Shown: positions 26,227 to 43,951 of the stretch, one piece after another
Numbering within the stretch: position 1 is the stretch's first letter
Layout: every line of letters begins with the position of its first letter
DNA from: Micromonospora deserti
GTDB taxonomy: Bacteria > Actinomycetota > Actinomycetes > Mycobacteriales > Micromonosporaceae
Assembly (NCBI RefSeq): GCF_003236335.1
Contig: NZ_POUB01000003.1
Coordinates: 1 to 64,000 of the forward strand
Length of the DNA stretch: 64,000 bases
Direction: 5' to 3'
Translations under genes and position numbers: made by a program
Notes under the pieces: model-generated
What the model saw: only the letters and a program-made list of their open reading frames with translations
What the model was told of the DNA's origin: nothing
Databases searched by the model: none

Positions 26227-27101
26227 GCCGGCCACTCGACCTCGGCACGCCCGAGCAGTTCCGTGCCGGGCGGCTGCTGGACGTGCTGATCCCGACCCGC
26301 AACCGTCCCGCCGAGTTGGCGGTCACCCTCTCCGGGCTGGCCGCCCAGGAGGGCGTGCCCGGCTTCGGCGTGGTGATCAGTGACCAGTCCGACGGCGAGC
26401 CCGCATACCTGGATCCGGCGGCGGCCACCATGATCCGCGCGCTGCGCCACCGGGAGCACCCGGTGCTGCTGACCCGCCGGCTGCCCCGCCGCGGGTTGGC
26501 CGAGCACCGGGCCTACCTGCTCGCCACCTCCGCCGCCCGGTACGTGCTCTGCCTCGACGACGACGTCTGGCTGGAGCCGGGCGCGGTGCGCCGGCTGGTC
26601 ACCGCGATCGAGGAACTGGGCTGCGGCTTCGTCGGCAACGGGGTGCACGGGCTGTCCTACGTCGACGACGTCCGGCCGGAGACGCACCGGCACTACGAGG
26701 AGTGGACCGGCCGCCCCACCCCGGAGCGGATCCGCCCGGGCACGCCGGAGTGGCACCGGGCGTCGATCCACTCGGCGGCGAACCTGCTGCACGTGACGCA
26801 GAAGCTCGACCTGCCGCCGGGGGCGTGGCGGGCGTACAAGGTCTCCTGGATCGGCGGCTGCGTGCTCTACGACCGGGCCAAGCTGGTCGACTCGGGTGGC
26901 TACGACTTCTGGCGGCGGGTGCAGGAAAAGCACCAGGGCGAGGACGTCGCCGCCCAGCTCGCGGTGCTGGCGAGGCACGGCGGCGCGGGTGTGCTGCCCA
27001 GCGGGGCGTACCACCTGGAGTCACCGACCACCGTCACCGACCGGGACGTGGAAGCGTGGGAGGTCGTCCTCGCCGAGGAGGACGCGGCCCAGCCCGCCTG
27101 A
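26223..27101 (+). CDS. Family 2 glycosyltransferase
   Basis: 292 aa, GT-A fold. The N-terminal LLDVLIPTRNRPAELAVTL, the VISDQSD segment and the metal-binding CLDDDVW (DxD) fit GT2. ADDs such as GGCVLYDRAKLVDSGGYDFW and EKHQGEDVAAQLAVL match the acceptor side. It is translationally coupled to hldE and convergent with a GT9 heptosyltransferase-like gene, so a heptose-containing glycan is the likely product. There is no membrane segment. Confidence 0.88.
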   Translation: MSRPLDLGTPEQFRAGRLLDVLIPTRNRPAELAVTLSGLAAQEGVPGFGVVISDQSDGEPAYLDPAAATMIRALRHREHPVLLTRRLPRRGLAEHRAYLLATSAARYVLCLDDDVWLEPGAVRRLVTAIEELGCGFVGNGVHGLSYVDDVRPETHRHYEEWTGRPTPERIRPGTPEWHRASIHSAANLLHVTQKLDLPPGAWRAYKVSWIGGCVLYDRAKLVDSGGYDFWRRVQEKHQGEDVAAQLAVLARHGGAGVLPSGAYHLESPTTVTDRDVEAWEVVLAEEDAAQPA

Positions 27102-27138
27102 CGACCGGCGCTCACACCGCGGCCCGGCGACCGGCGGC

Positions 27139-28296: not shown

Positions 28297-28305
28297 GGGC
28301 CCCCG

Positions 28306-28836
28306 CTACGGCTGGTCGATCCCGCCGGCGGCGGTGTCCGGATGGTGCAGTTCCCGGTCCGCGGCCGGGTCGATCGGCACACGCCCGGGCTGGCCGGCGG
28401 CGCGGCCGACGGTGATGGTGCGCGGCGCGGGCCGGGCCGCGCGGGGCAGCCGGACCCGGAGCAGGCCGTGGTCCATCACCGCGTCGATGGCGTCCGGGTC
28501 CACCCGGGACGGCAGGTCCACGCGGTACTCGAAGCCACGGGTCTCGAAGCCGCCGGGAATGCCGTGGTCGGCGTTGACCTCGGCCTCGGAGCGGGCCCGC
28601 ACGCAGAGTTCGCGGTCGTCCAGCTCGACAGCCACCTCCTCCGGCGCCACCCCGGGCAGCCGGACGACGGCCTCCCAGCCGTCGGCGGTCTCGGCCAGCT
28701 CGACGTCCGGCGGCCCGGACCGCCCGCCGACCAGCCGGCGCAGCTCGGTACGGAGCGACTGCAGCTCAGCCATCGGGTCCCAGCCCTGCTGCCGGCCGCG
28801 CCAGGCCCGGCCGAACCCGCCGCTCAGTTCGCTCAT
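28306..28836 (-). CDS. Hsp20/alpha-crystallin family chaperone
   Basis: 176 aa. The alpha-crystallin domain is seen from DVELAETADGWEAVVRLPGVAPEEVAVELDD (landmark VRLPGVAPEEVAVEL) to GLLRVRLPRAA, the usual G-x-L motif. The N-terminal arm and the ~30-residue C-terminal tail are short. As an ATP-independent holdase it prevents aggregation under stress. The start ATG 28836 overlaps the upstream DUF2231 stop by one base (TGATG), so the two are co-expressed. Confidence 0.92.
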   Translation of the reverse strand: MSELSGGFGRAWRGRQQGWDPMAELQSLRTELRRLVGGRSGPPDVELAETADGWEAVVRLPGVAPEEVAVELDDRELCVRARSEAEVNADHGIPGGFETRGFEYRVDLPSRVDPDAIDAVMDHGLLRVRLPRAARPAPRTITVGRAAGQPGRVPIDPAADRELHHPDTAAGGIDQP

Positions 28837-29339
28837 CACACCTCTCCGATCCGCTGGGTGGCCGCCGGGGGCCGCAGTGAGCTGGGCGCGTCCAGGCCGG
28901 CCTCCCGGTCGACGCCGACGCCGAGCCGGTCGACCAGTTCCCCGCCCAGCCAGGCGCTGACGCTGAGGATGGCCAGCGCGACCACCTCGATGGCGATCAG
29001 CGCGCCGCCGGCGGCCCGGGAATCGGCGTTGAGCCGGACCACCCAGACCGCGGCGAAGAGCAGGACGACGGCCACGTTGGCGGCGGCGTGGGTGAGCGCC
29101 ACCCGCTTCGCCCGGGTGCCGGACGGGATAGCCAGCAGGTCGAACGCCCCGGCCGCCGCGGCGAGCAGGCCGCCGACCAGGCCGACGGTGATGTTCCAGT
29201 ACGCGACCTCGCCGAGGAAGTCCGGGCCGCCCACGGTGTCGACGATGTCGAAGAGCACCGCGGTGACCAGCAGGCCCACCGGGAACATCACCAGCATGGG
29301 GTGGACAGGGTGGCCCAGTATCTTGAGTCGGCTCTCCAT
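28836..29339 (-). CDS. DUF2231 membrane protein
   Basis: 167 aa with four hydrophobic segments (starting MLVMFPVGLLVTAVLFDIVD, WNITVGLVGGLLAAAAGAFD, ANVAVVLLFAAVWVV and ALIAIEVVALAILSVSAWLGG). The early GHPVHPMLVMFPVG is the signature of the DUF2231 family. The His residues there might coordinate haem or metal, but no function is established. It is the first gene of a two-gene operon with Hsp20. Confidence 0.88.
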   Translation of the reverse strand: MESRLKILGHPVHPMLVMFPVGLLVTAVLFDIVDTVGGPDFLGEVAYWNITVGLVGGLLAAAAGAFDLLAIPSGTRAKRVALTHAAANVAVVLLFAAVWVVRLNADSRAAGGALIAIEVVALAILSVSAWLGGELVDRLGVGVDREAGLDAPSSLRPPAATQRIGEV

Positions 29340-29521
29340 CTCCGGGCCTCCACTGCTCGGTCGCTCCGGGCGCGTCGGGTGAGGCGGTACCCCCGGCTCG
29401 GGAGGGCAAACCTCGCGCTGGTGACGCCCGCCTAGGCTGGTGGGCGGCGGCTCGCCCGTCGGGCCGCCCCGCCCGCGGCGCGGCTCGCCGCCATCGGGGT
29501 CAACGGTCGGGGGAGGATCAC

Positions 29522-30139
29522 GTGACGGTGGAGATCACGTCGCACGAGGAGTTGCGGGAGTTGCTGGGCACGCCCACCGCACGGGCCGTCGACAAGGAGC
29601 GCACCCGGCTGCACGTGCGGGACCGGCAGTGGCTCGCCGCGTCACCGTTCTGCCTGGTCGCCACCGCCGGCGCGGACGGCACCTGCGACGTGTCGCCGAA
29701 GGGCGACCCGCCCGGCTTCGCCCTGGTGCTCGACGACCAGACCATCGCCATCCCCGAGCGGCCGGGCAACCGGCGCGCCGACGGCTACCGCAACATCCTG
29801 GACAACCCGCACGTCGGGCTGATCTTCCTGATTCCCGGGCGCACCGACACCCTGCGGATCAACGGCCGCGCCCGGCTGGTCCGGGACGCCCCCTGGTTCG
29901 ATGACATGGTCGTCCGGGGGCACCGGCCGGTGCTCGCCGTCGTCGTGGAGATCGAGCAGGTCTTCTACCACTGCGCCAAGGCGTTCCTCCGCTCCGAGCT
30001 GTGGCAGCCGGAGACCTGGCAGCCGGACGTCCTGCCGACCCGGGCCCGGCTGGTCAAGGAGGTGGAGGCGCCGGCCGAGAGCCTCGCCGACCTGGAACGC
30101 CACTACGGCCCGGACTACGCCAGGAACATCTACGTCTGA
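29522..30139 (+). CDS. FMN-dependent pyridoxamine-phosphate-oxidase-like protein (MSMEG_1061 family)
   Basis: 205 aa, split-barrel flavoprotein. Landmarks are FCLVATAGADGTCDVSPKGDPPGF, IAIPERPGNRRADGYRNIL and VGLIFLIPGRTDTLRINGRA, which fit the MSMEG_1061-type family (TIGR04025). Residues after ~140 (HCAKAFLRSELWQPETWQ) match the family C-terminus. The reaction is not known. The GTG start at 29522 has GGGGAGGATCAC upstream. It is a single gene. Confidence 0.87.
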   Translation: MTVEITSHEELRELLGTPTARAVDKERTRLHVRDRQWLAASPFCLVATAGADGTCDVSPKGDPPGFALVLDDQTIAIPERPGNRRADGYRNILDNPHVGLIFLIPGRTDTLRINGRARLVRDAPWFDDMVVRGHRPVLAVVVEIEQVFYHCAKAFLRSELWQPETWQPDVLPTRARLVKEVEAPAESLADLERHYGPDYARNIYV

Positions 30140-30190
30140 CCGTCGCCCCGGCACGCATCTCCCGTCAGGCCGGTCCACTCTGGCGACCGA

Positions 30191-30406
30191 CTACCTGCCC
30201 GGGCCGACGAGGTCGTAGCCGGCCTCCTCGACCGCGGCGCGCACCTCGGCGACGGCGAGGTCCCGGTCGCTGGTGATGATCACCGTACCCGCCTCGACGT
30301 CCACCGCCACGGCGGTGACGCCGGCGAGGCGTTCGATCTCGTCGGTGACGAAGCCGGCGCAGTGCCCGCAGGCCATGCCGCTCACGGCGTACGTCTTCGC
30401 GGTCAT
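30191..30406 (-). CDS. CopZ-like heavy-metal-associated domain protein
   Basis: 71 aa, a single HMA ferredoxin-like domain. The metal site is GMACGHCAGFV (MxCxxC), the usual Cu(I)-binding motif. It probably acts as a copper chaperone, though no copper ATPase is nearby. Its ATG overlaps the NTF2-like gene stop by four bases (ATGA), and both are divergent from the TetR gene, so this metal protein is under that regulator. The pairing with an NTF2-like protein is unusual. Confidence 0.92.
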   Translation of the reverse strand: MTAKTYAVSGMACGHCAGFVTDEIERLAGVTAVAVDVEAGTVIITSDRDLAVAEVRAAVEEAGYDLVGPGR

Positions 30407-30864
30407 GCCCCCGCCTCTCGCCCGTCGGGGGCCGGCCGCCCGTTCTCGGCTGCGACGTCCACGCCGACGCCGTCGCGGGCGGCGGGGATGGTGCGGGTGA
30501 GCATCTTCGCTCGCCGCATCCGGCCGTCGGGCGTGAACTGCCCGAAGAAGTACACCTCGACGGCGAGGGCTCGCTTGCGGTCCCGCACGTGGAGGGTGTA
30601 ATGCGCGGCAATCCGGTCCCCGTCCGCCAGCGCCTCGTGCACCTCCAGCCGGCCGCTGGGCCGGTTCTTGCGCACCGGCCGGGTGTGCGCGATCAGCTTG
30701 TCCCGGTCCATCCGGTGCCCGTCGGCGATCTGGACCACGTCCGGCGTGTGGTAGCGGTCGACGATCAGTGCGGGGTCCCCGTCGCTGCGCAACAGCTCGC
30801 CCATGTAGGAGGTGAAGAAATCGGCGATGAACTGCTTCGGATCGGAGGCGTTTAGAGATCTCAT
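30403..30864 (-). CDS. NTF2-like/SnoaL-type protein
   Basis: 153 aa. The cone-shaped NTF2 fold is suggested by FIADFFTSYMGELLRSDGDPALIVDRYHTPDVVQIADG (landmarks FTSYMGELL and DRYHTPDVV), then GDRIAAHYTLHVRDRKRALAVEVYFFGQFTPDGRMRRAKML. Such proteins are small-molecule isomerases or binding proteins; the ligand here is unknown. It is the first gene of an operon with the CopZ-like protein and divergent from tetR across a palindromic site. Confidence 0.8.
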   Translation of the reverse strand: MRSLNASDPKQFIADFFTSYMGELLRSDGDPALIVDRYHTPDVVQIADGHRMDRDKLIAHTRPVRKNRPSGRLEVHEALADGDRIAAHYTLHVRDRKRALAVEVYFFGQFTPDGRMRRAKMLTRTIPAARDGVGVDVAAENGRPAPDGREAGA

Positions 30865-30896
30865 GGCGTTCCCGTCATGGGCGCGGATCAGGTAAC

Positions 30897-30913
30897 TCTT
30901 ACAGCCTGTAAGA
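30897..30913. promoter_or_regulatory. TetR-type palindromic operator
   Basis: TCTTACAGCCTGTAAGA: eight-base arms around one C. It lies between the NTF2-like start (30864) and the TetR start (30940). This is the size and symmetry of TetR-family sites in divergent promoters, so TetR probably controls both sides. Confidence 0.75.
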
Positions 30914-30939
30914 TATTCGTCGTCGACAACTTTGGCAAG

Positions 30940-31578
30940 ATGTCAGAGATGACTCCATCCCAAGCCCCGAACCGGCGCGCCGACGCCCGCCGCAGCCAGG
31001 CGGCCATCCTCGACGCGGCGGTCCACCTCCTCAACACCCACCCCGACGCCAGCGTCGAAGCCATCGCCACCGCCGCCGGCGTCACCCGGCAGACCGTCTA
31101 CGCCCACTTCCCCTCGCGGCAGCGCCTGCTGGCCGCCGCCCTCGACCGGGTCACCGAGGAGACCGTCACCGCGATGGACACCGCCGACCCCGCCACCGGT
31201 TCGGCCGCGGACGCACTACTGCGCCTGCTCGACGCCGGCACCCGCACCGCCGGGCGCTACCGGGTACTGCTCCAGCAGATCAACTCGATTCCGGTGAGCC
31301 CGCAGGCCGACCACGAACGCCACGTACCGGTCGCCGACCGCCTGCGGCGGGTGATCCGGCGCGGCCAGGATTCCGGCGAGTTCGACGACCAACTCCCCAC
31401 CGACTGGCTCATCGCGGTCACCATCGCACTCGGTCACGCCGCGAGCGAGGAGGCCGACACCGGGCGCATGTCCGCCGACGAGGCGACCAGCGCGCTGCAC
31501 ACCAGCCTGCTCCGCGTGTTCGGCGCGACCGCCACCACGCCGCCTCCGCCCGCCGTCCGCGGGCCTCTTGCCGACTAG
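30940..31578 (+). CDS. TetR-family transcriptional regulator
   Basis: 212 aa from ATG 30940; ATG 30949 is equally possible since neither has a clear RBS. The N-terminal HTH is RRSQAAILDAAVHLLNTHPDA, then VEAIATAAGVTRQTVYAHFPSRQRLLAAAL, the canonical TetR signature. The C-terminal ligand domain (residues ~70-210) is all-helical. A near-perfect operator lies 27-43 bp upstream. It likely represses itself and the NTF2/CopZ operon until an inducer, possibly linked to copper, binds. The inducer is inference. Confidence 0.92.
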   Translation: MSEMTPSQAPNRRADARRSQAAILDAAVHLLNTHPDASVEAIATAAGVTRQTVYAHFPSRQRLLAAALDRVTEETVTAMDTADPATGSAADALLRLLDAGTRTAGRYRVLLQQINSIPVSPQADHERHVPVADRLRRVIRRGQDSGEFDDQLPTDWLIAVTIALGHAASEEADTGRMSADEATSALHTSLLRVFGATATTPPPPAVRGPLAD

Positions 31579-31699
31579 ATGCGGGCCGTTCACCTGTCGG
31601 GAGGTACGGGGCGTCAGCGGCAGGGATGGTAGGCGGGCCAGACAAGCCGACCTGCCCCTCACCCGACGCGGCCCCACCTCACCCCTGGACGTGTCTGGG

Positions 31700-32010
31700 C
31701 CGACTCTCCAGCATCAGGTGCGACGCATCCGTCCAGCATGTGGCGGGACAGCGGGGGTTCCTGCGGAACACCACCTTCTGGTCCCGGATGTTCCGGCGGC
31801 GTCAGTCGGCCTGGTCGGGGTGATTCCACACGACCTGCGGCACGGCAGCGAGTTTGGTCATGGCGGGCGCCAACATCAACACGTGCAGCGGATGCTCGGA
31901 CACGCCTCGGCGTCGATGACGTCGGACGTGCACGTCGGCCTACTCGGTCCTGACCCGAACGCGGTGACGCATCGGCTGGGTCAAGTGGTCGCCGCGTGCG
32001 ATGTGTGGAC
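31700..32010 (+). pseudogene. Tyrosine integrase 3' remnant (decayed, first copy)
   Basis: Pieces of a phage-type integrase C-terminus are readable in shifting frames: FLRNTTFWSRMF, then PHDLRHG, then VQRMLGHASASMTSDVHVGLLG and VTHRLGQVVAA. The matching intact pattern in the second remnant is LRNTNFRTRVFG, PHDLRHTAASL, VQRMLGHASASMTLDVYAGLFG. At least two frameshifts lie between these pieces, so it is not functional. The catalytic Arg of HDLRH survives, but the second catalytic region (Tyr in DVY) is changed to His. It marks the edge of an old integrative element. Confidence 0.8.
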
Positions 32011-32055
32011 CATTCGAGGATCGCTGGCGGCGCCGTGGTCGATCTCGGAAACGGC

Positions 32056-32082
32056 GAAGCCCAGGTCGCTGACCTGGGCTTC
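32056..32082 (+). terminator. Integrase terminator hairpin (first copy)
   Basis: A perfect 12-bp stem (GAAGCCCAGGTC and complement) with a 3-nt loop, followed by TTT. The same hairpin follows the second integrase remnant at 37726-37752. Confidence 0.85.
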
Positions 32083-32089
32083 TTTACCG

Positions 32090-32132
32090 AGCCGCCTGAC
32101 GGAATCGAACCGTCGACCTACGCATTACGAGA
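32090..32132 (-). repeat. tRNA-Thr(CGT) 3' fragment, old attachment site (copy 1)
   Basis: On the minus strand it reads from the anticodon loop (CTCGTAATGCG) through the variable loop and the perfect T-arm (GACGG, loop TTCGATT, CCGTC) to acceptor strand AGGCGGC. The 5' half of the tRNA (expected GCCGCCT start) is absent, so it is not a working tRNA. Together with the adjacent integrase tail this is the typical att scar of elements that integrate in a tRNA 3' end. The identification as tRNA-Thr(CGT) is from recall of the actinomycete gene, plus the CGT anticodon. Confidence 0.75.
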
Positions 32133-32509
32133 TCAAGTTGCCCACCTCGGTCTACCTGCCCTAACCCCGCCTGGCCTGCGGAAATCCCTCTCGGCATCTC
32201 ACAGTGTCGGTGGTCGCGGTCCGGCCTCTTGAGGACTAAATGAGGACTGACGCAGTGCGATGCCGCCATATGATCCGTAGATTCCCAAGAGCGGGCCACA
32301 ACCGTTCGGCAAGGTTCGACTCCCCCTGGTCCTTGCGATTTCCGCAACTCGATCGGTCCGGTCTCGTCCGGCTCAGTTCGCCCCGGTGGCTCCCACCTGT
32401 GGCTCCCAAACCTGTCCCCTGGGGACCCTGGTCGCCGCCGGCCTGGCGCGGAACGCGGCCCGGAGGGAGCCTTCCGCGCCAGGCCCAGCGTGGGTCGTCA
32501 AGCGTCGGT
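32133..32509. other. 377-bp gene-free stretch between att scar and LamG gene
   Basis: No ORF with a start and RBS. It contains one tRNA-3'-end-like string (GGTTCGACTCC near 32310), but the flanking bases do not pair into a T-arm, so it is not called. The region runs into the LamG gene's 3' end at 32510. Confidence 0.4.
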
Positions 32510-34111
32510 TCAGAGAGCCTGCTCGGTGAAGAGGCGCTGCACGTCCGCCTCGTTCAGCACGCCCTGGTACACGCCGAGGTCATCGACCTGTCCGTACAAC
32601 CATCCGTCGGGTCCTGCGGGTGTGGTCGACCGGCCGACCAGGAGGGCACCCGGCGCCTGTCGGGGCTGCCAGGCGGCGTTCAGTCCGACCGCCCCGGCCG
32701 CCGTCCCGTCCACGTAGAGCCGCGCCTGCCGGTGAGTGGCGTCGAGGACCGCCACGAGGTGGTGCCACTGGTCGACGGCAGTCGCCGGTGCGGTCGCGTA
32801 GGTAGTGGCGGGGTCGTCAGCCCCGTCGGCCACTGCGAACACCCACTGGCCACCGTTGTTCGGTTCGTAGGCGACGCGGAAGGCGCTACGGTCCACATCG
32901 TCCTGCGACAGGACCGTCTGCGCGCCCTGAGCCGGGTCCAGGCGCACCCAGGTCGAGACCGTGAACGACTGGTCGGTGCGGAGCACGGGTCCGTCCTGCC
33001 ACACCGGGTTCTGCGGCTCGCCCAGGTTGGTCTGGGTGCGGGCGTACTCCCGGGTCGCCTCGCCGTAGTGCGGGTCAGACGGATCGTCGATCCAGTGGGT
33101 GCCGTCGAGCGCGAGGGCGCTGCTGCCCCGGTGGCCGTCGGACGCGATGAAAGCGCCCTGGGTGAGGGCGAGCTGGCGTCCGAAGGCGGTGGAGTCAGGT
33201 GCGGAGCAGAGGGTCGGGTCGAGGTTCTCCTCGTAGCACGGGGTCGCCGCCTCGAAGTTCCATCCCCCGACCTGCCATGGCTGCAGCAGACCCGGCTCGT
33301 TGAACCCTCCGGAGTCCGGGTCGGAGGCGAGCCAGCCGGTAAAGTCCTTGCCGACCAGCACTCGGTCGTACGCCCGGACGTTGGCCAGGTTGCCCTGCCA
33401 CCAGGTGGTGTCGCCGCGGCCCAGCCGGACCTCGCCGGACGGGTCGTTGACTGCGGTCACGTTGCCCACCGTCGCCTCCGCCACTCCGTCCACCCAGAGG
33501 GTGAGCGTCCGTGCGGTGACATCGTGCACGACCGCCAGGTGCGTCCAGAGCCCGATCTGGGGTGCCGACGTCGACCGAGCGATGGACACCTTGCCGCCCT
33601 TGCCGGTCTTCGACGGCATCTGGACCTGCCACCGGTCGCTGGTCTTGTCATAGCCGACGGAGAGGGTGGCCTGGCCGGCGCTGGCCTTGCTGGCGAAGAC
33701 CCGGCTGACGGACGTGTCGGTGAGCCGCACCCAGGCAGCGAGAGAGAAGGTCCCGGCGGTGTTCAGGGCCGAGGGTGACGCCGACAGGGACGACGAGGTG
33801 CCGTCGAAGGCCACCGTCTGGCCACCGACAAACCGGGCGTCGTCCTGCCAGGAGATGCCCGAGCCGGTCAGCGGGGTGTCGCCGCCAACCGCTGGCTGCC
33901 CGTCGGCGAGTCCCTGCGCCTGGGTTATCCCCGGATATGCCTCCAACCCCCACATCGCCGTCGCCGGGGACGGCCGGTCGAGGGTGGTGGCGCGGGGCTT
34001 TGCGTCCGCCGTGGTGGCTGCGGCAAGGGGTAGCAGCGCGGCGGTGAAGGCCACGGCCAGGCGCAGTGCGGCCTTGCGGGCAGGGCCGAAGAAGTAAATG
34101 TGGTTAGTCAT
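32510..34111 (-). CDS. Secreted protein with two LamG-like jellyroll domains
   Basis: 533 aa. A signal peptide is present (basic RKAALRLAV, hydrophobic core, TTADAKP). Two concanavalin-like LamG domains follow: first around residues 85-235 (TVAFDGTSSSLSAS, FSLAAWVRLTD, VWTHLAVVHD-type LWTHLAVVHD, WVDG), second around 330-520 (ALDGTHWIDD, SFTVSTWVRLDP, QWHHLVAVLD, ARLYVDG). Such domains bind glycans or proteins. In actinomycetes they often sit at the end of much larger proteins; here they form a whole secreted protein. ATG 34111 has GAAGGTG upstream. It lies within the mobile region, so it is probably cargo. Confidence 0.85.
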   Translation of the reverse strand: MTNHIYFFGPARKAALRLAVAFTAALLPLAAATTADAKPRATTLDRPSPATAMWGLEAYPGITQAQGLADGQPAVGGDTPLTGSGISWQDDARFVGGQTVAFDGTSSSLSASPSALNTAGTFSLAAWVRLTDTSVSRVFASKASAGQATLSVGYDKTSDRWQVQMPSKTGKGGKVSIARSTSAPQIGLWTHLAVVHDVTARTLTLWVDGVAEATVGNVTAVNDPSGEVRLGRGDTTWWQGNLANVRAYDRVLVGKDFTGWLASDPDSGGFNEPGLLQPWQVGGWNFEAATPCYEENLDPTLCSAPDSTAFGRQLALTQGAFIASDGHRGSSALALDGTHWIDDPSDPHYGEATREYARTQTNLGEPQNPVWQDGPVLRTDQSFTVSTWVRLDPAQGAQTVLSQDDVDRSAFRVAYEPNNGGQWVFAVADGADDPATTYATAPATAVDQWHHLVAVLDATHRQARLYVDGTAAGAVGLNAAWQPRQAPGALLVGRSTTPAGPDGWLYGQVDDLGVYQGVLNEADVQRLFTEQAL

Positions 34112-34158
34112 TGCACCTTCCCCGTGAAGATTGTGGAGAGGAGCGGCTAGGAAGACGA

Positions 34159-34188
34159 TCATCTAGCCGAGTCGCCGGGACAGTGTCA
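34159..34188 (-). promoter_or_regulatory. Candidate promoter of the LamG gene
   Basis: Minus strand: GTGACA (34188-34183), 18-nt spacer, TAGATG (34164-34159). Both boxes are close to the housekeeping consensus and lie about 48 bp before the ATG. Confidence 0.4.
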
Positions 34189-34767
34189 CAAGACGGCCGG
34201 CGGACCGCTACCCCCTATCGGTGCTGTAGGCGCGACCCTAGCGGGTGGGCAGCGAAAGCGGGCTAGGCGGATCTCCTCGTCGGGCAGTCGTAGACCTTCC
34301 GGCCTCCCCAGACGGGGACAAGGTGGAGCGCCTCATCAGCCGAACGACCTTGGCCCCGTCCGGGGAGGCTGGTAGCCCTTGTGGTGCCCGGCGAGGTGAT
34401 CCGCCCCGGCATCTCTGAGGAGGGCCGGGGTTCGGGGCGGAGCCCCGAGGTCTTCGGGTCTTGGTCGTCCCCAAGCGTGGCCGGCCGGCCCGGCCGGTGC
34501 CGGCCGGAGGTCGCCAGCAGGCCGGGGCCGGGCCGGCGCGGCCCGCTTGCGGGCCGCCTTGATCCCTGAAAGAGGCCAATTCGGCAGTGACTTCGGACTC
34601 CACTTCGGCACTCCGGCACTTCGGGGCACTCCCGGCAATCCAGAGTCGCACCAGCTGCAGCAGTGAGTGGTCTCGCTCATCGCGTGGAACGCGAGCACGG
34701 GCGAGACCACTCAGTGCTGTGGGTCTGAGGGTGTTTGGTGGTCGCTGTGGGACCTACGAGCGGTGGA
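34189..34767. other. Gene-free stretch with large inverted repeat (34664-34713)
   Basis: 579 bp without a supported gene. At 34664-34676 and 34701-34713 lie exact 13-bp arms (TGAGTGGTCTCGC and complement). Between them is a second 5-bp stem (TCGCG/CGCGA), giving a 50-nt cruciform-like structure 55-104 bp past the stop of the CU044_5270-type gene; it may be that operon's terminator. Around 34420-34460 a CGGGGC-GGA-GCCCCG hairpin of a kind common in actinomycete plasmid DNA is present. Confidence 0.5.
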
Positions 34768-35928
34768 TCAGTTGTGGGGTGTGGTTCCGATCTTGTTCAC
34801 GGTGCTGGTGCTGACTGCGGTGTAGGCGATGGTCGTGCCGGGCTTGATGGCGCCGGCGGTGCGGGTGATGACTTGGCGTTCGCCGATGAATTCGCCGGTA
34901 GCGGGGTCGATGAGGATGTCGTGTCGTTCGCCGTCGGTGTCCATGCCGAGTGCGGTGCCGGTGCGGCCGTCGAGGTTGACGGAGTGCTCCACGACCTTGA
35001 GGGAGGGCACGAGGGCGAGAGCGCGGTACAGAGCGGCGCGGAGGTCGGCGGGCAGCAGGCCGGTGCGTAGCGCGTCGGCGGCGTAGACGAGCAGTTCGAC
35101 GTCGCCGCGGTCGTTGCCCTCGTCTGCACCGGGTGCGTCGGCACGCAGCCGCTCGAGCAGCTTGTGCGGATCGCGGGGCAGGCCAGCCATCCACTCCTCG
35201 GTCGGCATCTGCCACCCTGCGGGCATGCCGACGCAAGGTTCGCGGCCGTCGTCCTTGGCGTTGAAGTCGCCGCACGGGGCGACCTCGGCCGGGCCCTGCT
35301 GCGGCCCCTCAAGCGGCAGGCCGACGGCCTTGGCGTCCTGCTCGGTCCCGGCGATCCACGTGCGGTTTCCGGTGGTGCTGGTTCGCTTCATCCACTGCTG
35401 GGACCACACGGTGGGCACCCACAGTTCCTGAAGCCCCTCACTGAGGTACTCGATGTGCTTGCCGTCCGGGCCGGCGGTGCCCCTCCCACTCCAGCCGTGG
35501 GTGGCGATGTAGCGGTACTGGCCAGGCTGAATCGCTGGGTCGCCGGTGCCGGTCTTGGCCGCGGCCGCGGTGAGGACGGCGGCAGCGGCGCTGTCGATCG
35601 GCGCTCGGCCACCGAGGGGCAGTGACGGTGCCACGAGGGCACCGGTGGCGACCGCGGCTGCCGCGGCGGCCGCGACCAGCCACCGCCGGGTACGGCGGCG
35701 GGCCTGGGTACGGTGGGTCCGCGGTGGGTCGGTGATCGTGGGGGTGGACTGTTCGGTGACGGTCATCGGTTTCCTTTCGTGATGTGGTGCTCCTACGGCG
35801 GCCATCAGGTCGGCGCGTGCGGCGGCCAGTGCACGTCCGTCGGTGGGCACGTCAGAGCGAAACGCGGCCAGCGCGGCGTCCAGTTCGTTTTCTGGCCACA
35901 TCCGGTACAGGTTGTCGTGTTCGGGCAT
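34768..35928 (-). CDS. CU044_5270-family membrane protein, sigma-factor partner
   Basis: 386 aa. A cytoplasmic N-terminus (LYRMWPENELDAALAAF) and a basic stretch (RTQARRRTRRW) precede one transmembrane helix (residues ~83-101). A large external domain ends in LYRALALVPSLKVVEHSVNLDGRTGTALG and DILIDPATGEFIGERQV, which is the C-terminal signature of CU044_5270-family proteins. These occur as the second gene after ECF sigma factors and are thought to act as anti-sigma or signal-receiving partners. The start has GGAGGACTGAGTA upstream, three bases after the sigma stop. Confidence 0.85.
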   Translation of the reverse strand: MPEHDNLYRMWPENELDAALAAFRSDVPTDGRALAAARADLMAAVGAPHHERKPMTVTEQSTPTITDPPRTHRTQARRRTRRWLVAAAAAAAVATGALVAPSLPLGGRAPIDSAAAAVLTAAAAKTGTGDPAIQPGQYRYIATHGWSGRGTAGPDGKHIEYLSEGLQELWVPTVWSQQWMKRTSTTGNRTWIAGTEQDAKAVGLPLEGPQQGPAEVAPCGDFNAKDDGREPCVGMPAGWQMPTEEWMAGLPRDPHKLLERLRADAPGADEGNDRGDVELLVYAADALRTGLLPADLRAALYRALALVPSLKVVEHSVNLDGRTGTALGMDTDGERHDILIDPATGEFIGERQVITRTAGAIKPGTTIAYTAVSTSTVNKIGTTPHN

Positions 35929-35931
35929 TAC

Positions 35932-36552
35932 TCAGTCCTCCTTCCGTGCCTGGGTAGGCTCGCTGTGACCGCCAGGTGCGGATAGCTGGGCTTGGAGTTG
36001 GCGGCGTACGCGGTGCAGCCGTGAGCGGACGGTGCCGACCGGGATGCCGAGTGCCTCGGCGATTTCGACGCTGTCCATCTCGGCCCAGGAGGCCAGCAGC
36101 AGCACGTCGCGGTCGCCGTCGAATAACGCGGCCAGCGCACCGGCGAGTCGGCGTGCGGTTACCGCAGCGTCGACCCGCTCGACCACGCGGCTCTGGTCCC
36201 CCGGGTCGTGGCGTTCGACGGTTCCCACGGCACGGGCGGCAGCGTGGAGTCCACGGACCTCCTGCCGCACGTGTCGGCGCAGCAGGTTCGTCGCGATCCC
36301 GTACAGCCAAGACCGCACCGTGGCGCGAGCCGGCTCGTACTGGTACCGCTCGCGCAGGGCGACGAGGAAAGTCTCCGAGACCAGGTCGTTGGCGGTCTCC
36401 TGACCCACCCGCCGTGCCAGGTACCGGTGCAACGGCCGGGCGTATGCGTCAAAGAGCACCCCGAACACCTTCGCCGGCTCCGGCCCGTCCAAGCGGGGCC
36501 GGTCGACGCCGGCCGGTGGCTCATCGGCGACGAACCCGCTGTCGTCAGTCAT
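35932..36552 (-). CDS. ECF RNA polymerase sigma factor
   Basis: 206 aa. Region 2: FDAYARPLHRYLARRVGQETANDLVSETFLVALRERYQY (landmarks LHRYLARR and DLVSETFLVAL), then VRSWLYGIATNLLRRHVR. Region 4: LLLASWAEMDSVEIAEALGIPVGTVRSRLHRVRRQL. ATG 36552 was chosen because upstream residues are unlike the family. It is the first gene of a two-gene operon with the CU044_5270-type membrane protein. It lies within the accreted mobile DNA; it may respond to an external signal read by its partner. Confidence 0.92.
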   Translation of the reverse strand: MTDDSGFVADEPPAGVDRPRLDGPEPAKVFGVLFDAYARPLHRYLARRVGQETANDLVSETFLVALRERYQYEPARATVRSWLYGIATNLLRRHVRQEVRGLHAAARAVGTVERHDPGDQSRVVERVDAAVTARRLAGALAALFDGDRDVLLLASWAEMDSVEIAEALGIPVGTVRSRLHRVRRQLQAQLSAPGGHSEPTQARKED

Positions 36553-36654
36553 CGCGTACACACCTGTTGTTGCCCGATAGCCAGCCCGGCGTTCACCCAG
36601 CCAGCGTGACCCCCGCCACAGCACCCCGCCGCAGGGCCCGACCCGAGCTCTTTA

Positions 36655-36935
36655 TTACGGGGTGTCGGCACCGCTGCTTGGGTAGCTGCCGCTTCGGCGG
36701 GCTAGCAACCTAACCGTCGGGGGTGCGGATCTCTTCGTAGAGGTCGTCTGCGGCGCTGGATCCTCGTTACGGCTCGCGGCGGAGTGTCGCGGCGAAGCGG
36801 CCGAGCGCTTCTTGATCCGAGAGATTTGGCGGTCTGCTGGTAGGTCGAGGATTGGCCGGATGGCTGCGGTGGCGGAGTCAAGGTCGCCGATTTGGAGGTA
36901 GGCGGTGCCTTGGTAGACGTGGGCTAGGTGTACTG
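36655..36935 (-). pseudogene. 3' remnant of a TPR-type transcriptional regulator
   Basis: Only the C-terminal ~85 residues remain: VHLAHVYQGTAYLQIGDLDSATAAIRPILDLPADRQISRI (landmarks HLAHVYQGTAYLQIGDLD and ILDLPADRQISRI). This is the tail of actinobacterial XRE/TPR regulators. After KKR the reading frame drifts into an unrelated tail. The 5' side is cut at ~36935 by the IS481-type fragment, so insertion of that element (or recombination with it) destroyed the gene. Confidence 0.65.
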
Positions 36936-37195
36936 CCCAGGGAGGTTGGTCAACCTGGTGATGGGGGGCCGGCCTCCTATGGCGGTGTGGGGCCGGTGGT
37001 GATTGTAGTGATGAAGCCAGGCGGGCAGGGCTGCTCGGCGGGCGTGTTCGGAGCTGTAGAAACGTCGTAGTGACCAACCGTCGGTCATGGTGCGGTGGAA
37101 GCGTTCGATCTTGCCGTTGGTTTGGGGTCGGTAGGGGTGGGTCTTCTTCGGCCGGATGCCGAGGTGGTGGCAGGCGTCGAGCCAGGCGTAGGACT
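36924..37195 (-). mobile_element. IS481-family transposase 3' fragment
   Basis: About 90 codons of the rve integrase-core C-terminus: LGIRPKKTHPYRPQTNGKIERFHRT, then RRFYSSEHARRAALPAWLHHYNHHRPHTAIGGRPPITRL (landmarks PYRPQTNGKIERFHRT, NHHRPHTAIGG). These carry the last acidic residue of the DDE triad (E in GKIERFH). The N-terminal HTH and the first two Asp are missing. It is truncated at ~37195, exactly where the second integrase remnant begins on the other strand. Confidence 0.88.
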
Positions 37196-37197
37196 TG

Positions 37198-37742
37198 CGT
37201 CGGCGCTGCGGGTGTCGCGGCTGGATCTGCTGCGGCGGGTGACGGTGGCTGTGGCGTTCGCGGAGGTTGGCGGGGAACTGGTGGAGGGCACGCCGAAGAA
37301 CCACCAGCGCCGGTCGGCGCCGATCCCGCGCTTCCTCGTCGACGAGCTGGCCGCGCACGTCGCCGGAAAGCGCCGCGACGAGCTGGTGTTCACCGCACCC
37401 AACGGCGGACCACTGCGCAACACGAACTTCCGGACGCGGGTCTTCGGGCCGGCGGCGGCATCGGTCGGGCTGGCCGGGCTCACGCCGCACGACCTGCGGC
37501 ACACGGCGGCGAGTCTGGCGGTGGCGGCCGGCGCGAACGTCAAGGCAGTGCAGCGGATGCTCGGGCACGCCTCCGCGTCGATGACCCTCGACGTGTACGC
37601 GGGCCTGTTCGGCGACGACCTGGACGCCGTCGCGAACCGGCTGGACGAGGCGGTCGCGGCGCGGGATGCGGACTATTTGCGGACTGGGACGGCCGCCGGC
37701 GGCGTCGTCGATCTTGGGAAACGGCGAAGCCCAGGTCGCTGA
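37198..37742 (+). pseudogene. Tyrosine integrase 3' remnant (second copy)
   Basis: About 180 codons of a tyrosine recombinase C-terminus in one frame: TPKNHQRRSAPIPRFL (catalytic Lys loop), VFTAPNGGPLRNTNF, LTPHDLRHTAASLAVAAG (Arg-His-Arg box), VQRMLGHASASMTLDVYAGLFG (Tyr nucleophile in DVY). It continues to a stop inside the terminator hairpin. There is no N-terminal arm-binding/SAM-like domain and no start, so it is a fragment, joined abruptly to the IS481 piece. Catalytic residues are intact, unlike the first copy. Confidence 0.85.
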
Positions 37743-37752
37743 CCTGGGCTTC
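37726..37752 (+). terminator. Integrase terminator hairpin (second copy)
   Basis: The same 12-bp stem and 3-nt loop as at 32056-32082. The two copies are identical across the stem. Confidence 0.85.
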
Positions 37753-37760
37753 TGTACCGA

Positions 37761-37795
37761 GCCGCCTGACGGAATCGAACCGTCGACCTACGCTT
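37761..37795 (-). repeat. tRNA-Thr(CGT) 3' fragment, old attachment site (copy 2)
   Basis: The acceptor AGGCGGC and the T-arm are identical to copy 1. From 32047-32123 versus 37717-37793 (offset 5670) I see one mismatch. Beyond the variable loop the two differ (copy 2 reads GGTAAGCG instead of the CGTAATGCG anticodon region), so copy 2 is truncated nearer the variable loop. Confidence 0.75.
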
Positions 37796-37939
37796 ACCGA
37801 ACGTCACGGCCCTGAGCTTGTCATTGACCGCCAGAACCCATCACTGACCTGCACAGACGCAATCGTCAGCTTGTCAACACTCGTCACTGATAGTCGACCC
37901 TTAGCAGGGGTTTTCGGGGGGTAAACGGGGGCACCGTTG
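37787..37939 (+). repeat. Direct repeat, left copy (element boundary)
   Basis: It begins CCTACGCTTACCGAA and ends AGCAGGGGTTTTCGGGGGGT plus a purine/C run. Both end blocks recur exactly at 47297-47311 and 47413-47435. The middle is partly conserved (CTGCACAGACGC and ATCGT). It overlaps the tRNA-fragment att site, so it is probably an att arm. Confidence 0.75.
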
Positions 37940-38074
37940 ACCCGTTGCCGGGACGTTCACGGCCCCACCAGGCACCCTTTCCAGGCACCAGTCGCCCTGC
38001 CAACGTCGCGCGCGCCTGGCAGGTCACTGATCCCAGAAGCTGGCTTCGCCATCACGTCGGCGGTCACGTCGGGT

Positions 38075-38404
38075 CTACTCGTCGTCGGCGTCTGGGTTAT
38101 CCACCGCATTGATCTGCATTGGATCCGGTTTGACGGGAGCAGGGGTAGGCATCGGGCCTAGCCCAATCTGCTCGAGCGCATCGTGCAACGTTCCTCGAAG
38201 CTGGGTGGCGGCATCTCGCTTGGCCTGAAGGTAGGCGAGGTGCGCAGCAGCTCCCCCAGCCGAGCCCGCGTTTTCATACCCGCCCCAAACCTCCGCTTAG
38301 TGGTAGTTCCCGCCGGTGTTGTCGATGCGAGCTACCCAGAAGACCTTGCCACGCTTCCGCACGGTCCAATACGTACCGTCAGCGGTGTAGTTCCTGTAAG
38401 CCAT
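38075..38404 (-). pseudogene. Small unknown gene interrupted by an in-frame TAA
   Basis: From ATG 38404 the frame reads MAYRNYTADGTYWTVRKR, continues for 35 residues to GGNYH, meets TAA (38299-38297), and then continues in the same frame without another stop for 73 codons (AEVWGGYENAGSAGGAAAHL, AYLQAKRDAATQLRGTLHDA, ending AVDNPDADDE) to a TAG at 38077. The second part has no start codon at its beginning. CAA to TAA at one base would explain it. TAGCGT lies six bases before the ATG, so the transcript may be leaderless. The function is unrecognised: an aromatic/basic N-terminus, a helical middle and an acidic end. Stop-codon read-through is the alternative. Confidence 0.55.
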
Positions 38405-38697
38405 GGATCTACGCTAGACATGGCATCGGAGCCTGCGGATACCACAAAGGCTCCGAAAGCTTGACGGACGGGCGCTATCGGTGTTCCTACCGATCCGATA
38501 TGCCTCACAACCTGTCCCGGCGCCTTGGCATGGACGGTCCCGGTGGCGGGCCCCGCAAGATCGCTACCGTCCCGGGCTCCTCCAGGCCACGAGGGGCGAC
38601 ACCGGTACCACAGTGTCGCCGCACGGAGATCCAGACCCGGCAGCTTAGAGTCACGGTCGAGGCCCGGAACCGTCGCTGCCGCCGTGAGGAGATAGAG

Positions 38698-39075
38698 ATG
38701 ACTAAATTTATCTGGGTGAGCGTTGCGCAACCGCTATACGTTGCCCGCACCGGCATGGAGCGCAGTCTCCTCGGCGGCGGCCCCAACAAGACTGAGGAGG
38801 AGTGGCAAGACACGCTGGAAAGCGCGCAGAGCGGGTTGGACCACTTCTGCCGACCCGAGCGCGTCTACGGCCTCGGCACGAGCGACGACGCCGGCGAGGA
38901 CGCCCGTCCGGCGTACCTGACCGCGTCCGGGATCTACCACGACACTGGGCGCAAGGACAGCGAGGTCTACGTGACAGGCGACGATCCGGCCACGGCGGAG
39001 GCCGACGCCCGGAAGTGGGTCTCGAACTGGCTGGAGCGGGCGAAGACAAGGGTGAGCGACCTGGACGCCGACTGA
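38698..39075 (+). CDS. Hypothetical 125-aa protein
   Basis: Unrecognised. It starts at ATG 38698 with GAGGAG seven bases upstream and ends before a strong hairpin at 39169-39199. The sequence is soluble and acidic (FIWVSVAQPLYVARTGMERS, GLGTSDDAGEDARPAYLTAS, EADARKWVSNWLERAKTRV). There is no signal peptide or membrane segment. A clear RBS and terminator argue for a real single-gene unit within the mobile region. Confidence 0.7.
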   Translation: MTKFIWVSVAQPLYVARTGMERSLLGGGPNKTEEEWQDTLESAQSGLDHFCRPERVYGLGTSDDAGEDARPAYLTASGIYHDTGRKDSEVYVTGDDPATAEADARKWVSNWLERAKTRVSDLDAD

Positions 39076-39168
39076 ACTTGCGGATGGGATTGGCGTCGTC
39101 GCCGACGCGAGGAACGAACGGCAACCTGCTGACCGTGGAAGCCAGCTTACCGTTGTACGAGCGTCTGT

Positions 39169-39199
39169 ACGACGCCCCGGCATGATGCCGGGGCGTCGT
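39169..39199 (+). terminator. Hairpin terminator of the 125-aa gene
   Basis: A perfect 14-bp stem (ACGACGCCCCGGCA and complement) with a 3-nt loop TGA, ending TCGTT, 94 bp past the stop. Confidence 0.8.
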
Positions 39200-39337
39200 T
39201 CGCGCCTACTCGAACATCGAGTCGCTCCCCGATTGTGTGGCTGCCCCGGTGAACACTGTTCCCCGTCAACACCTCTCACCCGGCGAGCCACTGGATGAGG
39301 ATGACGCGGCGTCGTACCGGTGTCCTAGAGTGCCGCC

Positions 39338-39490
39338 ATGGCCGACCGCACCTACGGCGACATCCCCGGTTTCCCTGCAGGCACAACGTTCGTCAACCGG
39401 AACTCGACGTCGGACGGGCTGGGCAACAGCCGCAGCCCGTGCGGTGCGGGAAGCGGCGGCGGGAACGGCGCACGGCGGTCGAAGCTGTAG
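39338..39490 (+). pseudogene. Truncated start of a YDG/SRA-domain protein
   Basis: ATG 39338 opens MADRTYGDIPGFPAGTTFVNR, which closely fits the start of bacterial YDG/SRA domains (G-x-IPG-x-P-x-GTTF-x-NR). After ~22 codons the sequence turns into antisense of the HNH-like gene and stops at 39488. SRA domains recognise modified cytosine and are often fused to HNH nucleases in modification-dependent restriction. Only the beginning survives, so this is a broken restriction gene. Confidence 0.6.
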
Positions 39491-40139
39491 ACCAGCAGCG
39501 CGACGCCGTTGACGACCAGGCAGCTGTCCAGGATGCGCCGTGGCTCCTCACCTGGTGTCGGCGGGCTCGTGCGGTCGTAGGTCACGTGGGCCTGAAGCTG
39601 CTGGCACAGGTCGAGGTCCCGGCAGGACGCGAGCCACACCCAGCAAGCGGCCGGCGGCTTGTTCTCCTCGCCGAGGCATCGCCGCATACCCTGAGGCATC
39701 CAGGCGTGCTCCAAGTTTTGGTCACCGAGCCCGGCCAGCTCCCAGGTCCACGAGGTCTTCACCGCCCAACGGGCGAGCACCGTAGCCTTCTACAACCGAC
39801 AGAGTCCCGCGTCTCGTTACGCCGACGGGCGGCGAACAGATCCTTGAGGAAGGGCTTGGCCGACGTCTCCAGGCGGCTCATCCACCCGTTGTTGCACGCC
39901 GTGCACACGGTGCGGGTTACCTGGTGCAGCAGCGAGTTGCGCGACACCTTCATCGTCTGGCCGACGCTGGCGTACGCACGCCCGTCGTCCATGGTGTCGA
40001 AGCCGGACCCGTAGGTGGTCCGCTCCATCGGCAGCGGGCCAACGACGTCGCGCATCCACTGGGCGAGCACATGTTCGCGTGACGCCCAGCCCGGCTCACC
40101 GCAGAACGCGCCCCGAAAGCCCACCCTTGGTGTGACCAT
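39352..40139 (-). pseudogene. Frameshifted HNH-like zinc-binding protein
   Basis: From ATG 40139: FCGEPGWASREHVLAQWM, then VCTACNNGWMSRLETSAKPFLKDLFAARR, which looks like the CxxC...EHV...CxxCN pattern of HNH-like nucleases; the first CxxC has lost a Cys (GAFCG). Near 39800 the frame breaks, and the remaining coding sequence continues in another frame as VLARWAVKTSWTWELAGLG to RLTNVVPAGKPGM. A single frameshift with loss of the link makes this a pseudogene. It directly follows the DUF4238 gene and was probably its operon partner. Confidence 0.65.
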
Positions 40140-40147
40140 CCCGCCCC

Positions 40148-41215
40148 CTACTGCCACCAGCGCGCGACGGGCAGCGGTGGAACGCGCTCCGCGTTGGCCC
40201 ACCGGGATGGACGGTATACGCGATGAACAGTCTGACCGGGTGATCCGATGCCGGTAAGCGGGCCTTCCATGACGGTGGCAGCAGCGGGCAGCGGCGGCAC
40301 GGTCAGCGCGAGCGTCGCGCGGCGCGAGCCGCGCTCGAACGCCCACCGGCTGGCGTTGGCGATGATCTCCCGGTTCACCTCGGCGGTCTCGGCATGGTCT
40401 AGCTCGAGCGGCGGCTCGACCTGCGTACCCTGGCGGAACAGGGCCAGCAGCGCGTTGGGGGCCAGCGGATACAGAATGACGGCGGCAGACTCCACACCCG
40501 CGCGTTCGGCGCGATCGTGATCCGGGCCGCCCAGCACGACGACGGGTTCATCGCATGTCACCAGCACGTTCGGGGTCCGCACGACGTACCACTCGCGGAA
40601 CAGGATGTGGCGGCACAGCTCGCTAGCCGTGGTCGCCGCGTTGCCGAGGATCATCGCGGTCTGCGGCTGCGCGACGATCTTTCCGGCCTGGACCTGGCCG
40701 ATAAACTCCCTGATCTCGGCGAAGTCGGCCTCGGCGAGGTCGCGTCCGAGCCGTGTGGCGAGCTGCTGGTCGGTCAGGTCCTTCGTGTCCATGCGAAAGA
40801 AGTCGGCGGCGGCCTGCCGCTGCTGGCGGCGAAACGCCTCGCCTCGGGTGAGCTGGAACGCCAAGAACCAGGCGAAGCCCATCATGAGCTCGGGGTCGAT
40901 CTGGCTCGGGTGCTTCACCAGCAGCTCATCGATCGCGCGCTTGCCGTATCCTTCGGCGCTACCGAGCATCGTCTCGAAGATCAGCGGCGGGATCTCCGCC
41001 GGGTCGAGGTCGTCGGACTCGATGCGGTAGTAGTCGGTCTCCCGCGCCGCGTTGGCGGGCGTCGCGTGGTAGCTGTATCTGTCGTCGGCCCGGGTCACCC
41101 GGACGGTGCCGCCGTCAGCCCACCGTTCCAGGTACGAGCGCGGCACTAGGTGATGCTTGCGCTGCCGGGACGGCCCGGCCTCCGACGCGGCGGCCTGGGC
41201 GATCAGCGTCTGCAT
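40148..41215 (-). CDS. DUF4238-domain protein
   Basis: 355 aa from ATG 41215. The signature HHLVPRSYLERWAD at the N-terminus, followed by ETDYYRI, and the central LAFQLTRGEAFR and MILGNAATTASELCRHILFREWYVVRTP fit DUF4238. It contains CDEPVVVLGG and SSRRATLALTVPPLP-like segments near the C-terminus. The family is of unknown function and frequent in defence or mobile regions. The start is uncertain since no RBS is visible. It lies 9 bp before the broken HNH-like gene on the same strand. Confidence 0.82.
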   Translation of the reverse strand: MQTLIAQAAASEAGPSRQRKHHLVPRSYLERWADGGTVRVTRADDRYSYHATPANAARETDYYRIESDDLDPAEIPPLIFETMLGSAEGYGKRAIDELLVKHPSQIDPELMMGFAWFLAFQLTRGEAFRRQQRQAAADFFRMDTKDLTDQQLATRLGRDLAEADFAEIREFIGQVQAGKIVAQPQTAMILGNAATTASELCRHILFREWYVVRTPNVLVTCDEPVVVLGGPDHDRAERAGVESAAVILYPLAPNALLALFRQGTQVEPPLELDHAETAEVNREIIANASRWAFERGSRRATLALTVPPLPAAATVMEGPLTGIGSPGQTVHRVYRPSRWANAERVPPLPVARWWQ

Positions 41216-41403
41216 GCCGGGCGGGAGAGCCGAGTGGCTCGGGTGAGCATGAGGCACCCGGCAAACGTTACTGCCGCGCGGGCGCGGCAGCGATCGAATT
41301 CCGTGCCGGTGCGGCTCACAGTTATGCGCGATGTCCACGCGGCCGTACCGCGTCACCGGGCTGGTCAGCGAATACCGGGCCCGGCGGTTCCAGATGGAGG
41401 AGT

Positions 41404-42831: not shown

Positions 42832-42912
42832 CACCGCCTGGTCGGCCGGTTGGCGATCCTTAGCGCCCGGTGCGTCGGCCCGTATGCCCACACTGCTGCC
42901 AGGTAGGAAGCC

Positions 42913-43101: not shown

Positions 43102-43284
43102 GCAGTGCCAGTTGTCCAAAATCCAGCACCCCGCCAGGTCATGCCTTGTCCATTTGCCAGACCAGTGATGACACCCGGCCCGTCGTCCGACGCGAGCCGT
43201 TCCCATGCTTGACGGCTCCCGCCGGGGGCATGTCACAGGCGGTGGACCTGCGGCTGGGACGGTACGCAGCCGGCTGTTCCGGTG

Positions 43285-43950: not shown

Positions 43951-43951
43951 G

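Follow-up and report, generated by a model that had tools for sequence, protein, structure and literature searches.

The window analysed here, a 64-kb stretch of DNA from Micromonospora deserti, is part of contig C333 in a draft assembly of 614 contigs, and the contig continues past the window to position 86213. Two spans of 77 bases each (32047-32123 and 37717-37793, offset 5670) were compared within the window and are identical at 76 of 77 positions, the single mismatch being T at 32084 versus G at 37754; the original prediction of a hairpin, T-arm and acceptor repeated at this offset with one mismatch is thereby borne out. Each copy is composed of a hairpin and the 3' part of tRNA-Thr(CGT). 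The hairpin before scar 1 (32047-32088) folds at -25.1 and -27.3 kcal/mol on the two strands, and the scar itself (32089-32131, minus strand) holds the 3' 43 bases of the tRNA; in the same comparison, the second hairpin occupies 37717-37758, and scar 2 (37759-37793, minus strand) holds the 3' 35 bases. Besides these copies and a repeat family at 2039-4459, the window holds no exact direct repeats of at least 30 bases. No tRNA gene was detected by ARAGORN in the 64 kb, and an Rfam scan of the window produced no match at gathering score. It should be noted that a similar hairpin also adjoins the tRNA in another genome (G005), whose site is almost empty; therefore, the hairpin is probably better read as a terminator that the integrase and tRNA genes share where they converge than as a feature of the integrase.

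The intact tRNA-Thr gene was expected outside the window, and ARAGORN places it on a different contig of the same genome (C298:2860-2934), where it is adjoined by an intact integrase and an excisionase-like gene. Its 3' end is identical to scar 1 over 43/43 bases and to scar 2 over 35/35 bases, 35 bases being the unbroken match for the latter. The displaced 3' fragments lie in the orientation of the tRNA and on its 3' side. The segment 16160-30147, which has collinear DNA matches in 14 of the 20 same-genus loci around tRNA-Thr(CGT), corresponds to the chromosome beside this gene and includes the anchor gene PNPOx_N (29522-30139), present in 138 of 151 genomes; the interval 30200-31580 was dropped as a chromosomal marker, having partial matches only, and 29522-30139 was used instead. 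This synteny supports the view that all parts of the array belong to one locus, including the intact tRNA on its separate contig, and the probable order is chromosome (to about 30147), degraded E0, scar 1, E1, scar 2, E2, intact tRNA. The complete gene shares the att core with the scars and, judging by synteny, would occupy the same locus, not an unrelated place devoid of att-like duplication. Comparison with related strains (the 14 loci above, and G022 and G090 below) likewise supported the locus and its stacked elements.

A tyrosine-integrase C-terminus precedes each scar, as anticipated. That of E0 is a degraded 3' end (31761-32045, plus strand) with stops and frame breaks, and its C-terminal part (31796-32032) shares 55.6% identity with the E1 integrase over 81 aa. 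This integrase end is the only attachment end of E0 remaining; no older scar bounding E0 was found on C333, where a search allowing 8 mismatches over 39 bases gave no further core. Both ends of E1 (32132-37758; arm class I, hairpin class a) match a 5.2-kb element adjoining the intact tRNA in G022, and the span between the scars is a single element whose two ends are recognisable. Its cargo, all on the minus strand, comprises a Laminin_G_3 protein (32510-34162, Pfam E 7.4e-43), a protein without a match in the Pfam scan (34768-35928) and an ECF-type sigma factor (35932-36624, Sigma70_r2 and r4_2). A transposase fragment (rve_3, 36951-37187, minus strand, Pfam E 2.5e-20) occupies the place expected for the front of the E1 integrase; the integrase homology of relatives starts at 37197, and only the C-terminal part of the gene (37197-37742, plus strand; Pfam Phage_integrase; 93.5% over 154 aa to G022) is found beside this IS fragment. 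Excisionase queries gave no match in E1 at E below 0.2. Thus, with att sites kept and no working integrase or excisionase, E1 would be classified as a CIME.

E2 starts at 37794 and extends through the end of the window (64000). Contigs C333, C232 and C298 match, in this order, a 70.7-kb element of the closed relative G090, and C298 continues into the chromosome. The assembly contains no joins between the three contigs, and their ends share no overlap (none of at least 8 bases between C333 and C298). E2 is most likely a T4SS-type integrative conjugative element split over these contigs, and the comparison with G090 suggests a size of about 70 kb. Its integrase, on C298, is intact and belongs to a family that differs from the related E0 and E1 integrases, and a T4CP-like coupling protein is encoded on C232 (79% to G090), so that both integrase and coupling protein are present. 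A VirB4-like ATPase is present in G090; in the M. deserti genome there is a weak match only (32% over about 110 aa), and the position of VirB4 in G090 corresponds to the stretch missing between C232 and C298. E2 itself may lack parts, or VirB4 may be absent from the assembly. Defence genes were brought in by E2: the element carries a pPIWI-RE three-gene module (47569-55694, minus strand; Pfam and PADLOC) and a type I restriction system. E2 is presumably still able to move.

The distal arm of E2 (37794-37965), similar to arms in 49 of 151 genomes, contains the motif GGGGTTTTCGGGGGG at 37907-37921, i.e., at +148 from the core start. On C298, the motif is at position -82, and in 12 cases it is found at -82 ten times, once at -80 and once at -83; such a fixed spacing from the core is among the less expected findings. 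Among 38 readable core-to-core intervals, the hairpin class could be predicted from that of the distal arm in 31, and 7 break the rule; these classes were drawn up after inspection of the data, and a same-core control was also associated, though more weakly. Five of 43 intervals were left out of this test as unclassified (G013, G124, G048 and two of G090, one of them the 70.7-kb interval), and the repeat locus G073y was skipped. A second arm-like copy, in which the tRNA core is mostly absent, lies at 47269-47466 (75.7% over 173 bases to 37786-37956, motif at 47417), and it is at odds with a single E2. The interval 47200-47300 was also considered as a scar of another tRNA and rejected, the search of its own genome having returned the interval alone.

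We interpret the window, with a probability of about 0.92, as the distal portion of an array in which integrative elements are stacked in tandem at the 3' end of the tRNA-Thr(CGT) gene. An incoming element would bring its own copy of the 3' part of the tRNA together with the hairpin terminator, its integrase gene converging on both. The integrase of the element would recombine the carried copy with the intact tRNA, so that the gene is rebuilt with the 3' part and terminator of the element, and the old 3' part would be displaced to the far end as a scar. Repeated insertion would give the order described above, with the youngest element nearest to the tRNA. The present state would then be E0 reduced to its integrase end, E1 with both ends (matching G022) and a truncated integrase, and E2 as a T4SS-type ICE with an intact integrase, its arm on C333 and its integrase end on C298. 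An integrase in each unit, as in the Islander rule for tandems, is not found here: it is intact in E2 only. The initial suggestion of two elements of one family inserted in succession at one tRNA stands as to the succession and the relatedness of the E0 and E1 integrases; however, at least three elements are suggested, and the integrase of E2 is different.

Both scars could also stem, with no separate insertions, from a single integrase-att end duplicated locally or by an IS, which would agree with the near identity of hairpin and core and with the rve_3 fragment near scar 2. However, the integrase ends have only 79% DNA identity over 281 aligned bases, compared to 76/77 in hairpin and core, and the protein identity given above is lower still; the DNA to the right of the two cores represents two different arm classes, each also present in elements of other genomes, and core-bounded arrays recur in many genomes. 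We regard such a duplication as highly improbable. It is nearly as improbable that C298 derives from another element and that the arm at 37794 has lost its true partner or has it elsewhere. The three contigs do not overlap in this fragmented draft, and integrases of the C298 family also occur away from the tRNA-Thr(CGT) core in other genomes, e.g., G132; against this, all three contigs are collinear with one G090 element, C298 enters the same chromosomal flank, the arm motif is on both C333 and C298, and the pattern search found three cores in the M. deserti genome, two of which are the scars. A more serious, still unlikely alternative is that E2 represents two stacked elements, 37794-47269 and another from 47297 on, with the intervening scar destroyed. 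The second arm copy, with its motif at the right spacing, speaks for this scenario. Conversely, the core at that copy is mostly absent, an open frame extends to 47153, and the integrase searches, which used three queries and can miss other families, had no match on C333 from 37794 on.

Under the favoured reading of an ordered stack, the odd pair of scars is resolved, and one tRNA gene emerges as a stacking site for the genus. A pattern search with a complete per-genome table found at least two tRNA cores in 59 of 151 genus genomes and at least three in 20 of 151, under a rule that counts the core alone, does not require an integrase and admits some cores far apart; core spacings from this search are those among the matches listed. 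Across the 47 loci that retain an intact core, 39 scars were counted, all on the 3' side of that core (on the 5' side most stretches extend no more than 1-2 kb). Anchor typing covered 82 of 138 anchor rows, of which 79 had a core on their own contig and strand and two had one on the other side as well; the distance from the anchor gene to the farthest linked core varies from 0.76 kb to about 118 kb.

Small core-bounded units without a recognised integrase, found in relatives, are also among the less expected findings. These operon-sized units of about 2-4 kb are bounded by attachment ends, lack a recognisable integrase and carry an ABC transporter with PadR, an SDR with TetR, an old-yellow-enzyme with TetR, or a two-component system (the scan covered 20 of the 27 ORFs listed in seven short type II intervals; as the interval of G007 repeats that of G008, it was omitted). 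A 3.8-kb core-bounded unit common to G007 and G008 is 92.7% identical, with flanks at 80-85%, and adjoins the tRNA in one genome and lies one unit away in the other. It is conceivable, though rather doubtful, that the locus is integron-like, such units stacking beside the intact tRNA, with a resident ICE supplying the integrase that moves them. Counter to this, one of ten short type II intervals (G111) holds an E1-type integrase, another (G120) a 19-residue integrase remnant, and in G134 and G065 copies of units lack terminal cores; much of the pattern is explained by plain decay to CIMEs. The arm motif, together with the units lacking a recognised integrase, makes it testable whether passenger units are moved by an ICE integrase here.

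Tandem accretion at a target gene in the order CIME-ICE-target gene has been described in streptococci (PMC7563491, PMC5704250), and because of this the array is placed in a known class. The process itself is known; tRNA-Thr(CGT) is a busy site for stacking in its genus, and no literature on tRNA-Thr(CGT) arrays in Micromonospora was found among the top-ranked matches in open-licence papers. The streptococcal CIMEs, as described there, resemble E1 in being att-bounded units without working recombination genes beside an ICE and its target gene; here an actinomycete tRNA-Thr(CGT) serves as the target, and the likeness of E1 comes from its sequence. In Streptomyces, AICE accretion at tRNA-Arg involves, according to the account in PMC9513070, successive elements, direct repeats and a remnant at the far end, features shared with the present array, as is the actinomycete host; however, those are TraB-type AICEs at tRNA-Arg, in contrast to the T4SS-like E2 at tRNA-Thr(CGT). 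PMC3218068 treats actinobacterial ICEs of the T4SS type and pSE211-type elements that sit at tRNA-Thr, the likeness consisting in the T4SS-like transfer genes of G090 and the tRNA-Thr integration site. The Islander study (PMC4383910) describes a tDNA fragment marking each island end and an anticodon-centred attachment subsite, both as in our array; its table includes 125 tandems of at least two and 4 of at least three in 2168 genomes, compared to 59 and 20 of 151 genomes here by the looser core-only rule.

The original prediction of a near-identical repeat pair was confirmed: two copies of 77 bases (32047-32123 and 37717-37793, offset 5670) differ at one position (32084/37754). No other exact direct repeats of at least 30 bases occur in the window, except for one repeat family at 2039-4459. 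Each copy consists of a hairpin followed, on the minus strand, by a displaced 3' part of tRNA-Thr(CGT) (scar 1, 32089-32131; scar 2, 37759-37793), and the window contains no complete tRNA. It should be noted that 2017-4717 is a repeated coding stretch, in which 2017-2713 is 86% identical to 4048-4693, and 2572-2714 is present again at 3249-3391 (99%). The intact gene had been expected to lie outside the window or to be lost, and it was found on another contig of the same genome (C298:2860-2934). Searching the entire assembly (6.72 Mb, 614 contigs), we obtained four matches: the two scars, this gene and, more weakly, a tRNA-Thr(GGT) on contig C605. In its last 43 bases, which reach into the anticodon loop, the intact gene is identical to scar 1; to scar 2 it is identical over 35 bases. 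A hairpin lies on its 3' side in C298, as do genes for a tyrosine integrase of 405 aa and an HTH_17 excisionase-like protein.

Comparison with related genomes also agreed with the prediction. Of 20 stretches fetched around tRNA-Thr(CGT) in same-genus genomes, 14 contain DNA 3' of the tRNA that corresponds collinearly, at about 77-90%, to parts of window 16160-30147. This region was unmatched in the fetched stretches of the other six; the anchor, the chromosomal gene PNPOx_N (29522-30139), lies 21-41 kb from the tRNA in three of these (G012, G018, G022) and on a different contig in two (G015, G010), and no anchor was detected at the cut-off in G013. The anchor is present in 138 of 151 genomes, and it shares contig and strand with the core (the shared tRNA 3' segment) in 79 of the 82 anchor rows used. 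The farthest core lies 0.76 kb from the anchor in G005 and 118 kb in G090, the extremes of a range with a median of 8.5 kb, setting aside G129, in which a second core lies 213 kb further on. The G005 site is almost empty: 0.75 kb after the anchor come the hairpin and then the tRNA.

The 35-base core (up to two mismatches) was found in 148 of the 151 genomes, two or more times in 59 and three or more times in 20, and a reversed control pattern had no matches in the same set. Among the matches listed, at least 30 genomes have two or more cores no more than 90 kb apart on the same contig and strand, and in a further three pairs the cores are separated by more than 200 kb. All 39 scars in the 47 loci that have an intact core are on its 3' side, most stretches extending only 1-2 kb to the 5' side.

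For all cores read, the distal arms (such as 37794-37965, right of scar 2) and the hairpins were assigned, after inspection, to three classes each. Arm and hairpin classes agree in 31 of the 38 readable intervals (I-a, 14, including the interval between the scars; II-c, 10; III-b, 7) and the pairing is broken in seven; five of the 43 intervals were unreadable, and the count leaves out the tRNA-proximal element E2 (arm class II on C333, the contig of the window; hairpin class c on C298). Mutual information was 0.78 across the interval, compared to 0.36 in the same-core hairpin-arm control (39 cases), in which the association was also not nil (p 0.0009 versus 0.00005 for the interval pairing). 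With up to two mismatches allowed, 11 of 22 class c hairpins and one of 13 unclassified ones have the motif GGGGTTTTCGGGGGG on their left, between -80 and -83 relative to the core start (-82 in 10 of 12). Of 18 class II arms, 11 have the motif on their right, always at +148. It was not found at 39 class a or 21 class b hairpins, nor at 16 class I, 10 class III and four other arms; the loci searched (964 kb) contain 28 copies in total. This motif is a putative integrase arm site. C333 has two copies, at 37907 and 47417, the latter without a proper core beside it. Around it, 47200-47470 resembles an arm, in which the motif keeps its usual distance and the tRNA core is mostly replaced; 47222-47257 resembles a tRNA T-arm by eye.

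The outermost element, E0, is reduced to a degraded integrase end (31761-32045) left of scar 1; HMA, SnoaL_2 and TetR genes separate it from the chromosome, and no older scar bounding it was found. In G022, a displaced core and the intact tRNA flank a 5.2-kb element, the left end of which matches window 32067-32408 (85%, 342 bases) and the right end 37197-37797 (87%, 605 bases). Because both ends match, 32132-37758 represents one element, E1. Its integrase starts only within the catalytic part, adjoining an rve_3 transposase fragment, and excisionase queries had no match in E1; the cargo comprises a Laminin_G_3 protein, an ECF-type sigma factor and a protein without Pfam match.

The arm right of scar 2, where E2 begins, has relatives in 49 of 151 genomes. 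Third-position GC of genes predicted by a simple gene picker is 0.70-0.87 from 38461 on versus 0.79-0.98 left of 31578. In the closed genome G090, four cores span 85 kb, with a tRNA-proximal interval of 70.7 kb. Three M. deserti contigs are collinear with this interval: C333:81137-86206 corresponds to 68.2-73.2 kb, C232 to 80.8-87.6 kb and C298 to 95.3-100 kb, where the match continues through the tRNA into the chromosome. Genes of G090 there include those for a TraG/VirB4-like ATPase, a T4CP-like protein (79% identity to its C232 counterpart), TrbL_4 and peptidase M23; its VirB4 has only a weak match in M. deserti, and its place falls in the gap between C232 and C298. E2 cargo in the window includes DUF4238, a pPIWI-RE module, a Ser/Thr kinase and, from 61582 on, a type I restriction system; lantibiotic dehydratase genes lie beyond it (C333:72284-78746: a lantibiotic dehydratase and a dehydratase-PCMT fusion-like frame). 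The stretch 40148-55694, which combines the DUF4238 protein, a 1030-aa protein (PNP_UDP_1 and PADLOC effector matches) and the three-gene pPIWI-RE module, is possibly a defence region.

Ten class II intervals are shorter than 5 kb. Three integrase queries had no match in seven of the eight searched, the eighth (G120) having a 19-residue remnant; of the remaining two, G020 has no integrase match and G111 has an integrase of the E1 type. Of the 27 open frames listed for seven short intervals, 20 were scanned as proteins, and none matched an integrase family. The plain reading is that these units are elements decayed to CIMEs (att-bounded units without working recombination genes); a bolder one is that they were moved by an integrase acting in trans. 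Over 3.8 kb, up to the cores, the G007 and G008 copies of one unit are 92.7% identical, and their flanks 80-85%. Close relatives of this unit occur in four genomes besides G007 (87-94%, some partial); the G134 and G065 copies have no core in the fetched stretch, and the G147 copy has a poor core (eight mismatches) nearby. Core-bounded intervals of 15.9 kb (G116) and 17.7 kb (G164) contain very long open frames, of 2504 aa in the former and of 1461 and 2854 aa in the latter.

Tyrosine integrases catalyse recombination between attP and the 3' part of a tRNA gene, and the incoming element restores that gene. In the order chromosome, E0, scar 1, E1, scar 2, E2, intact tRNA, E0 would have arrived first and E2 last, in agreement with the decay seen. 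Every incoming element would also supply a terminator, as suggested by the hairpins that separate an integrase gene from the tRNA gene converging on it, and by the one present at the near-empty site. Accretion at a tRNA has been described in Streptomyces (PMC9513070), CIME-ICE-target gene tandems in streptococci (PMC7563491, PMC5704250), tRNA-Thr and T4SS-type integrative conjugative elements (ICEs) in actinobacteria (PMC3218068), and tandem islands in a further study (PMC4383910). The M. deserti array is of one kind with these published cases.
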